Virus record (IMG/VR): IMGVR_UViG_3300031566_000136
Span: 1 to 40,733 of that record
DNA length: 40,733 nt
Origin: a virus
Direction: 5' to 3' (one strand)
Shown: in pieces, positions 457 through 40,733 of the stretch
Position numbering within the stretch: position 1 is the first letter of the stretch
How the letters are laid out: every line of letters begins with the position of its first letter
Notes under the pieces: generated by a model
Told to the model about the DNA's origin: nothing
The model's database searches: none
The model's input: only the letters and a program-made list of their open reading frames with translations
Made by a program: the position numbers and the translations under genes

Positions 457-485
457 TTGACAGTGATTATTGAAAATGTTTTACT
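457..485 (+). promoter_or_regulatory. Putative late promoter, TTGACA-17-TTTACT
   Basis: A perfect -35 box (457-462) and a 4/6 -10 box (480-485) are separated by 17 bases. Transcription would start near 492, only about 20 bases before an intrinsic terminator at 513-535. This promoter-terminator order, placed between small ORFs and the packaging/head genes, resembles the lambda pR'-tR' late switch. A second TTGACA at 485-490 has no good -10 partner. Confidence 0.5.
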
Positions 486-512
486 TGACAACAGAGGGAA
501 TACTTATGCCCT

Positions 513-537
513 AAGCCCGTTTCGGCGGGTTTTTTGC
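513..537 (+). terminator. Intrinsic terminator directly after the promoter
   Basis: The stem AAGCCCG (513-519) pairs with CGGGTTT (526-532) around a 6-base loop, and the 3' arm runs into a tract of seven T (530-536). This is a conventional Rho-independent terminator. Transcripts from the promoter at 457-485 would end after about 45 nt unless terminated transcription is overcome. Confidence 0.8.
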
Positions 538-555
538 ATTATGACGGGAGGCTAT

Positions 556-709
556 CTTATGGGTCTAGATTCCCATAGGGTTGTCTCCCACAGTGCCAGG
601 GCGAGTAACCCTGGCCCGACAGCCCCAAGTAAGTCCTGGAATAGACGCTTTGCTGGACAGCAGGGCAATGAGCTACCAGGGATTGGGGCTGTTTCTATTT
701 CAGGAGACA
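556..709 (+). ncRNA. Structured leader RNA masking the ribosome site of the next gene
   Basis: This non-coding stretch folds into nested helices. A hairpin pairs 556-563 with 572-579 (8 bp). A closing helix pairs TGTCTCC (582-588) with GGAGACA (703-709). Inside it are a hairpin GCCAGGG/CCCTGGC (595-601/609-615, 7-nt loop) and a long arm. The arm consists of a 10-bp helix 619-628/683-692, then 634-639/676-682 with one bulged G, then 647-654/659-666 capped by GGAC. The closing helix contains AGGAG (702-706), the ribosome site of the ORF at 713, so folding would block translation. I do not recognise a known riboswitch class. A TTG-started frame crossing this region is not credible as a gene. Confidence 0.65.
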
Positions 710-712
710 TAA

Positions 713-805
713 ATGGATGAAACCTTTATAGAAGATTACGAATACCCTTGGGACTGGGAGAACTTTACGGGTGAGAACTGTCTATATCCTGATAAAGAAA
801 CGTAA
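713..805 (+). CDS. 30-aa acidic leader peptide ORF
   Basis: The ATG at 713 follows AGGAG at 702-706. The frame encodes 30 residues, strongly acidic and aromatic (EDYEYPWDWENF), and its TAA overlaps the ATG of the phosphoesterase gene (TAATG), so translation of the two is probably coupled. Its ribosome site lies in the closing stem of the upstream structured RNA. It may be a regulatory leader peptide or a genuine microprotein; no family is recognised. Confidence 0.5.
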   Translation: MDETFIEDYEYPWDWENFTGENCLYPDKET

Positions 806-3952: not shown

Positions 3953-5096
3953 GTTAGAGGGGGGGACATGGAGTAGCAAGACATACTCTGCCCTGCAAGC
4001 ACTCCAGGTCATCGCTGAGAAGGCCGAGATTCCCCTTGATATTAGTATTGTGTCTGAATCCTTGCCTCACCTGAAGCAAGGCTGTATCAGGGACTTTTTT
4101 AATATATTAGGCGAGGACAAGGACAAAAGTTCTTTTTATCATAAAACAGATCATATCTATAAGCGCCCTACTTGGAATGGCAAGTTTGTGTTCTTTGGTG
4201 CTGATGATTTAAGCAGAGTAACAGGTCCAAGACGGCACATTCTGTTCATCAATGAGGCTAACAATATACCCTGGGAGACTGCCAGGGGATTAGATATTAG
4301 AACTGAGCTGTTCACTATCTTGGACTGGAACCCTGTCGGTGAGTTCTGGGCTCACGAACAGTGGACAGAGGAAGATGTTAATGCCTATGACCATTCGACT
4401 TATCTTGACGCTGTAGATGTCATACCTGAAACAAAGGTATCAGAGATAGAGTCCTACCGGGACAAAGACCCTAACTGGTGGAACATCTACGGACTGGGGT
4501 TGATAGGCAAGATTGAGGGCATGGTGCATCCCTACTTCAAGCAAGTAGATAAATTACCTGCTGGCAATCCTTTCTATGGACTTGATTATGGGTTTGGTTC
4601 TTATGACCCTATGGGTTTGAAGGGTGGCGATCCAACAGTTCTGGTCAAGAACATCATTATAGGAGATAACCTATACAGCCAACAGATGTTCTATAAGTGG
4701 GAACCTATGACTAACGATGACATAGCCCGCAAAATGGATTTACTAAAAATATCCCATGAAGATCCCATATATCCTGACCCAAGTGAGCCTAAGAGTGCTG
4801 AGGAAATCAAGCGTAAGGGCTTCAGTGTGCAGGAAACCGAAAAGGGAGCTGGGAGCGTAGCCTTCGGTATCAAGAAAGTCAATTCCTACTACCAACATTG
4901 GACGAAGGATAGCTTAGATTGTATTAAGGACCAGCGGAATTACCGATACCTGAAAAGGAAAGATAAGACTGGCGGGGAATATTTGAGCGATGAAACTACA
5001 CACCGGTATTCTCACGGCATGGATGCCAGAAGATACGCCGTAGCATCTCATAAGCTCAGTGGAATCTCCCGCACAAGCCCGGTGTGGCAATTCTAG
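3882..5096 (+). CDS. terL: Terminase large subunit (ATPase-nuclease), 404 aa
   Basis: The packaging motor. The Walker A-like loop is GGTWSSKT (27-34), and Walker B is hydrophobic I-L-F-I-N-E (E125 catalytic, with N124 where Asp is usual). The RNase H-like nuclease acidic residues fit D235 in GLDYGFG, D299 in YPDP and D381 in HGMDARRYA. It cuts concatemeric DNA and pumps it into the prohead through the portal. An in-frame ATG at 3888 is an alternative start. Length and motif order are normal for the family. Confidence 0.92.
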   Translation: MDMRTTKVFKAILEAWVQGKRRIKLEGGTWSSKTYSALQALQVIAEKAEIPLDISIVSESLPHLKQGCIRDFFNILGEDKDKSSFYHKTDHIYKRPTWNGKFVFFGADDLSRVTGPRRHILFINEANNIPWETARGLDIRTELFTILDWNPVGEFWAHEQWTEEDVNAYDHSTYLDAVDVIPETKVSEIESYRDKDPNWWNIYGLGLIGKIEGMVHPYFKQVDKLPAGNPFYGLDYGFGSYDPMGLKGGDPTVLVKNIIIGDNLYSQQMFYKWEPMTNDDIARKMDLLKISHEDPIYPDPSEPKSAEEIKRKGFSVQETEKGAGSVAFGIKKVNSYYQHWTKDSLDCIKDQRNYRYLKRKDKTGGEYLSDETTHRYSHGMDARRYAVASHKLSGISRTSPVWQF

Positions 5097-5105
5097 GAGG
5101 GCAAT

Positions 5106-14459: not shown

Positions 14460-14588
14460 ATGAAGCTAAAAATACCGAGATTGACCTGCAATCGTTGTGG
14501 TCATACTTGGATACCACGTCAAGTAGAAATTACTATATGCCCCAAGTGTAAAAGTCCATATTGGGATAAGGTTCGGAAACGAAGGTAA
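14460..14588 (+). CDS. Small zinc-ribbon protein, 42 aa
   Basis: The start at ATG 14460 follows GGTAAGG and lies just downstream of a strong promoter; upstream in-frame codons lie in the promoter and are excluded. The protein is one zinc ribbon: C-N-R-C-G-H-T-W-I-P-R, then C-P-K-C-K-S-P-Y-W, and a basic tail. Such rubredoxin-type microproteins are common in phages and archaea. It probably binds nucleic acid or protein. Its TAA overlaps the ATG of the HNH gene. Confidence 0.7.
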   Translation: MKLKIPRLTCNRCGHTWIPRQVEITICPKCKSPYWDKVRKRR

Positions 14589-15028
14589 TGCCCCAAATAG
14601 GCGAGATTAGATACGGAAAGGAAATTGGGCTTAAAAGCCACGCACAATTTATATGGCACGCTTGTGTAAACTGTGGAAAGGAACGCTGGGTCTTATTTCT
14701 AAGGGGCAAAGCAAATAGACTTAGATGCAGACATTGTTCTTACCGTGAACACTACAAAAACTTCAAAGGCAAATATGTAACAAATGATGGGTATGTAGCT
14801 ATATATGTAGATAGTAATTCTATTTTTGCCCCCATGTGCAATAGTTCAGGATTTGTCCATGAGCATCGTCTCGTGATGGCAAGGTATCTAGGTAGATGTC
14901 TTCACTCTTGGGAAGATGTTCACCATGTTAATGGAATACTCAATGATAATAGGCTAGATAATCTAGCACTACTACCCAAGAGTGTGCATGGCAAATTGCA
15001 TAGGGAACTTCAATTAGTGAACAAGTAA
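14588..15028 (+). CDS. HNH homing-type endonuclease, 146 aa
   Basis: An N-terminal zinc ribbon (C26-x2-C29 and C47-x2-C50) precedes an HNH_3-type nuclease core at about 89-130, with H-E-H-R-L-V-M-A-R, V-H-H-V-N-G and N-R-L-D-N-L. The fold is that of free-standing phage homing endonucleases, which cut DNA to spread their gene. It is coupled to the zinc-ribbon ORF and followed by a terminator, so the two form an independent cassette inserted between the giant protein and the scaffold gene. Confidence 0.82.
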   Translation: MPQIGEIRYGKEIGLKSHAQFIWHACVNCGKERWVLFLRGKANRLRCRHCSYREHYKNFKGKYVTNDGYVAIYVDSNSIFAPMCNSSGFVHEHRLVMARYLGRCLHSWEDVHHVNGILNDNRLDNLALLPKSVHGKLHRELQLVNK

Positions 15029-40480: not shown

Positions 40481-40663
40481 ATGCCTGAAGGCGTAAAGTT
40501 GATAGACTGCAAAAGCCTACTAGAGAAGATAAGGCAAACCTTGAGTGTGCAAGAGGCAAAGGTTATAATATTAATGCGTGATGTCCCTTATGGGACGATT
40601 GAAATTATCATGGAGGACGGAAAAGTAGTGCATAAAAGAAGGATAGAGAGCGTTAAAGACTAA
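40481..40663 (+). CDS. DUF2292-like small protein, 60 aa
   Basis: The C-terminal half (Y-G-T-I-E-I-I-M-E-D-G-K-V-V) matches the DUF2292 pattern of a conserved Y-G-x-[IV]-x-[IV] strand followed by D-G-K-V-V. The ATG is 1 base after the previous stop, so translation is coupled. Function unknown. It is the last gene of the early operon. Confidence 0.6.
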   Translation: MPEGVKLIDCKSLLEKIRQTLSVQEAKVIILMRDVPYGTIEIIMEDGKVVHKRRIESVKD

Positions 40664-40685
40664 CTAGCCTATCGAACAAGTCGGG

Positions 40686-40733
40686 GGCGAGTTTTGAGGT
40701 TCAATTTTGTGACCTCAAGATTCGCCTCTTTTT
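40686..40733 (+). terminator. Strong intrinsic terminator ending the early operon
   Basis: A 15-bp stem pairs 40686-40700 (GGCGAGTTTTGAGGT) with 40712-40726 (ACCTCAAGATTCGCC), with two G-T pairs near the middle and an 11-base loop. It is followed by TCTTTTT at the very end of the window. It stops rightward early transcription. Confidence 0.85.

Follow-up and report, generated by a model that had tools for sequence, protein, structure and literature searches.

What does a densely folded stretch at the head of a phage late region do? The question is raised by positions 556 to 709 of a 40,733-nucleotide virus record (IMGVR_UViG_3300031566_000136, positions 1 to 40,733, referred to here as the window) from a temperate phage with terS and terL, major head protein, integrase, and repressor genes. 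An earlier note on this DNA had taken the stretch for a riboswitch or protein-controlled leader that gates late translation by closing a stem over the ribosome site of the first late open reading frame (ORF). On the best reading, 556–709 belongs to the late operon's untranslated leader. We put at slightly better than even the chance that it is a Q-type terminator leader of a nonlambdoid kind, whose stop signals would be overridden by a phage protein, because regulator, promoter, terminator, and late genes follow one another as in lambdoid Q systems. The basis is sequence comparison, namely, the order of parts, terminators as sequence features, covariation in two hairpins (P2 and P3), and loss of the proposed closing stem. 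What recurs in relatives is a transcription termination layout and not a translation switch. A packaging (cos/pac) or attachment site was set aside on distance, with terS about 2.6 kb from the folded stretch and the integrase gene at 28.5 kb.

Read 5′ to 3′, the window has the end of the putative regulator gene, the candidate promoter, a predicted intrinsic terminator (t1), the hairpins H0, P2, and P3, and the first late genes (Table 1). The truncated gene encodes the end of a small basic protein identical at 42 of 43 positions to the end of the L005 regulator. Fourteen relatives of this protein align over their length, with 22 to 53% identity to the L049 member, and in relatives, too, the regulator lies directly before the late promoter, the positional order found in Q-type antitermination. 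TTGACA, a 17-nt spacer, and a −10-like hexamer follow the regulator in all 11 aligned late promoters, although several of these were placed by eye and the count was not blind. In L008, L033, L049, and L113, the −35 hexamer shares bases with the regulator stop codon or directly adjoins it. The recurrent TTGACAA/TATGCC element just downstream might serve as a sigma pause element. As in Q-type antitermination, a terminator stands shortly past the late promoter; the t1 stem is retained in L003 although most loop-proximal bases differ. A strict terminator occurred within 250 nt of 9 of 16 promoters (3 of the 9 being near-identical) versus 1% of random 250-nt windows from the same records. Regulator gene and promoter are kept, and the terminator mostly kept, in the leaders of L008, L018, L032, and L078, and the short form in L008 consists of promoter, terminator, and one small hairpin followed by the same TTTCTATTTCAGGA.

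We infer promoter activity, a pause, regulator loading, read-through of terminators (antitermination), and a Q-like function as follows. RNA polymerase would start at the consensus-like, apparently always-on sigma-70 promoter directly 3′ of the small regulator gene and would meet t1 and then P3, a weaker terminator-like hairpin, so that early in infection transcripts would end at t1 or P3. Once made, the regulator, a putative Q-like antiterminator, would load on polymerase near the promoter, and the loaded polymerase would pass both terminators and go on to transcribe terS, terL, and the structural genes. On this view, what lies near the ribosome site would be transcription stop signals and spacer hairpins rather than a translation gate.

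The regulator itself also admits another role. PHROG_79 (“anti-termination protein Q-like”) weakly matched 2 of the 14 family members (L113, E 4e-4; L032, E 0.0013), and a Pfam search of the family returned no Q family; the family as a whole was too diverse for a profile scan. The L032 regulator contains a sigma-region-4-like helix-turn-helix segment, and structure models of moderate confidence (mean pLDDT 78.5) matched sigma region 4 in Foldseek with a prob of 0.9 to 1.0 but E > 0.2. Both observations would suit a promoter activator of the Ltr/RinA/ArpU kind, in which case the leader would be an ordinary structured 5′ untranslated region whose hairpins mostly insulate the operon from early read-through. 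We regard this as unlikely, and an Ltr-type activator as less likely than antitermination, because the promoters look strong unaided (TTGACA, 17 nt) and because no array of the 18-bp repeats seen at Ltr sites was found, the 160 bp upstream of the promoter containing no arrayed exact repeats of at least 9 bp. Furthermore, a terminator right after an activated promoter would be pointless unless overridden.

Folding 556–715 yielded −69.5 kcal/mol, whereas shuffled sequences averaged −50.7 and none of 200 did as well (z = −4.55), which bears out the view of a structured, noncoding leader with the helices described by the earlier note. Its outermost helix, 582–588/703–709, said to hide AGGAG, proved to be an artifact of folding from 556. 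The pairs had a probability of 0.79 to 1.0 with that start and 0.00 in transcripts starting at 491 or 536, because GGGAGGC (546–552) pairs with 583–589 to give H0, which would form before the closing stem during transcription. Minimum free energy folds of the full L003 and L005 leaders showed the same replacement of the closing stem by a local hairpin. In longer transcripts, the AGGAG bases were a mixture of free and weakly paired positions, indicating that the ribosome site is not locked. A riboswitch layout is unsupported as well, the stem that should pair with the Shine-Dalgarno sequence having a probability of 0.00 once upstream sequence is included. Gating of translation by a ligand or protein through this stem is therefore highly improbable in our estimation: the stem does form when folding begins at 556, but it is gone with at least 20 further upstream bases, L006 has other sequence in place of the complementary arm, Shine-Dalgarno sequences readily find pairing partners, and relatives keep the operon without the stems. 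The note had itself held that homologues retaining a gene here without the stems would speak against it, and these exist in part, given that L008, L018, L032, and L078 lack P2-P3. Control of late expression remains a likely role for the leader, but a translation gate does not, the closing stem disappearing once the leader’s own 5′ sequence is included. As to the five helices, two (P2 and the P3 base) show covariation, the closing stem is replaced, and the apical helix within P3 is variable, being absent when L003 and L005 are folded in silico. Among close relatives the inner part of H0 is invariant, and H0-like hairpins with altered arms occur in L006 (one copy) and L049 (two copies). A recurring hairpin, GGGAGGCGAYATAGGG...GTCTCC, whose arms change in concert, lies at L049 4072–4124, L049 4418–4470, and L006 624–678, the second L049 copy lying within a short ORF.

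AGGAG does precede an ORF at 713, as had been noted, and L003, L005, and L006 each encode a small peptide resembling its product (YPxxWENFxGE-like). The proposed coupling of this ORF to a phosphoesterase gene is weak; the gene directly behind AGGAG in L005 and L006 differs from that in the window, and L003 has other ORFs separating the small ORF from the phosphoesterase gene. In L006, an HNH endonuclease gene (after 850) stands directly behind the leader’s ribosome site. That the stretch is instead coding deserves very little credence. A frame from 457 to 720 is open in the window, L003, and L005, and in L005 and L006 its stop codon sits right against the following start codon; however, amino-acid-changing codons are at least as numerous as silent ones (6 versus 3 in L003 and 3 versus 3 in L005), ATG 541 is ACG in L005, and the number of bases separating the −35 hexamer from TATGCC does not keep to multiples of three across relatives.

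Together, P2 and P3 make up a previously undescribed module of two hairpins (P2-P3) that occurs sporadically in phages and has no assigned RNA family; Rfam 15 yielded no family above the curated threshold in the window and only chance-level matches in 400–830. Three near-identical copies (L003/L004, L005, and L006) were retrieved with a pattern derived from the stretch, and a looser pattern brought up further homologues in L047/L049/L110, L113, and L117. For P2 plus the P3 base, 97.5% of cells in the seven-sequence alignment form standard pairs, and in five pairs both partners have changed. None of 500 shuffles reached these values, and every slid control was worse. For the P3 base taken separately, two pairs changed on both sides and 98.6% of cells were paired. 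Since four of the seven sequences are close relatives, only four lineages lie behind this covariation. The pattern that gave L113 and L117 preset the loop of P2, the two pairs that close it, and the P3 5′ arm and left the outer P2 pairs and the P3 3′ arm free. A covariance model built from the seven sequences found no further member in 98 records searched, and its scores for its own seven members are by construction. In L006, the segment 5′ of P2 is swapped for unrelated sequence, with P2, P3, and AGGAG retained. The roughly 594 nt from the first terminator to P2 in L006 (144–737) hold a tRNA-Pro gene on the minus strand and, near 390–560, a further tRNA-Leu-like, possibly degenerate stretch. 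In L117, a GC-rich 79-kb contig, P2-P3 stands alone between genes (5030–5100, minus strand), adjoining the end of a long helicase-like gene; this gene setting differs from that of the window, and the element there is possibly a small RNA gene.

Other matches were rejected. Exact-pattern matches in bacterial genomes (L099 to L103) were chance hits with no structure around them, most looser-pattern matches fell within coding DNA and had neither P2 nor P3, and those in Pseudomonas phages (L104, L105, L111, and L118) had the pattern without P3, L104 reaching only 16.7 bits (E 0.11). The pattern was absent from 397 Actinomycetota genomes, and the phage and plasmid records searched gave no match to the stretch. 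L111, a Pseudomonas-like phage contig, carries a csrA-like gene after a structured leader (from 5598).

P2-P3 may bind a ligand or protein. The put element of phage HK022 is a two-stem RNA that antiterminates in cis through the zinc-binding domain of the RNA polymerase β′ subunit. Its two stem-loops together take up about 70 nt, and putR is found about 270 nt past its start site (PMC9378689). By analogy, P2-P3 (595–693), common to unrelated phages, might act in cis on RNA polymerase as put does, or it might bind a phage protein through its constant CGAGYAA loop, in either case sharing control of late transcription with the regulator encoded upstream. The protein site might be boxB-like, and the loop can be written as a GNR(N)A pentaloop, GAG(U/C)A. 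We consider this a doubtful proposition, a long shot next to the terminator leader. The short forms in L049 and L117 are about 56 to 70 nt, with the two hairpins 2 nt apart, and covarying stems carry a near-constant loop. However, P2-P3 lies downstream of t1 and so cannot help polymerase past that terminator, neither sequence nor Rfam comparison linked it to a known class, most relatives lack the module, and loop identity was partly preset by the search pattern for L113 and L117.

Several observations weigh against the terminator leader. The window −10 hexamer (TTTACT) is poor, and a generic promoter scan missed this promoter because the hexamer lacks an A at position 2. Seven of the 16 promoters have no strict terminator, and the P3 U-tract is weak in L049 and L117. 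Most regulator family members, including those closest to the window, match no known antiterminator, and the predicted regulator structures match no solved Q protein. Finally, terminators by themselves leave the constant CGAGYAA loop, the constant P3 base, and the occurrence of P2-P3 in GC-rich L117 unexplained; a cis-acting RNA like put, or a protein site, would account for the loop and for L117.

Elsewhere in the record, the right end of the window (40481–40733) resembles genes upstream of the regulator in L008 and position 1 falls within the regulator gene, so that a piece between the two ends seems to be missing from the record. A free-standing HNH endonuclease gene (HNH_3) lies at 14588–15025.

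Table 1. Features at the head of the late region of the window
Feature	Position	Strand	Evidence
Putative late regulator (Q-like) gene, C-terminal 43 codons, cut by contig start	1..132	+	Translation
Putative late promoter, TTGACA - 17 nt - TTTACT	457..485	+	Alignment with late promoters of relatives
Recurrent element of initially transcribed region, second TTGACAA then TATGCC	485..508	+	Most of 11 aligned promoters
Intrinsic terminator t1, 8-bp stem plus T-run	513..535	+	Terminator scan: 1 found versus 0.3 in shuffles
Hairpin H0, 7 + 10 bp (17 bp)	546..589 (546-552/583-589; 554-563/572-581)	+	Outer and inner stem pairing probability 1.0
P2, 7-bp hairpin, loop CGAGUAA	595..615	+	Covariation: 3 pairs changed on both sides
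P3, terminator-like hairpin, base 618-628/683-693 then UUUCUAUUU	618..700	+	Covariation; inner part variable
Shine-Dalgarno AGGAG of first late gene	702..706	+	Sequence; kept in L003, L005, L006
First late ORF, 30 aa (MDETFIEDYEYPWDWENFTGE...)	713..802	+	Similar small ORFs in L003, L005, L006

If the proposed reading is true, a family of uncultured temperate phages whose regulator looks unrelated to Q also controls its late genes in the Q manner, by letting polymerase read through a promoter-proximal terminator, and the spread of such control and the number of times it was invented become directly testable. P2-P3, for its part, is a defined, covarying RNA without an assigned family.

Three known systems invite comparison. 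The Ltr/RinA/ArpU activators of Gram-positive phages likewise pair a small basic regulator with a late promoter directly downstream (PMC13123087), but here no upstream repeat array was found and a terminator follows the promoter. HK022 put resembles P2-P3 in layout only, both comprising two adjacent hairpins in a phage leader, whereas P2-P3 belongs to a late operon and lies behind a terminator and put belongs to an early one. In lambdoid phages, the Q gene, late promoter, pause, terminator tR′, and late genes follow in order, and Q loads on polymerase paused near the promoter, allowing passage of tR′ (PMC6606751); AlpA works like Q (PMC9371919). The regulator family here looks unlike Q proteins in sequence and predicted fold, the leader has two terminator-like hairpins and an extra conserved hairpin, and a Q binding repeat and pause are features established in the known systems. 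What the window does appear to share with Q of lambda, 21, and 82 and with AlpA is the arrangement itself, that is, a regulator gene, a strong late promoter, a promoter-proximal terminator, and the late operon, in that order (PMC6606751, PMC9371919).
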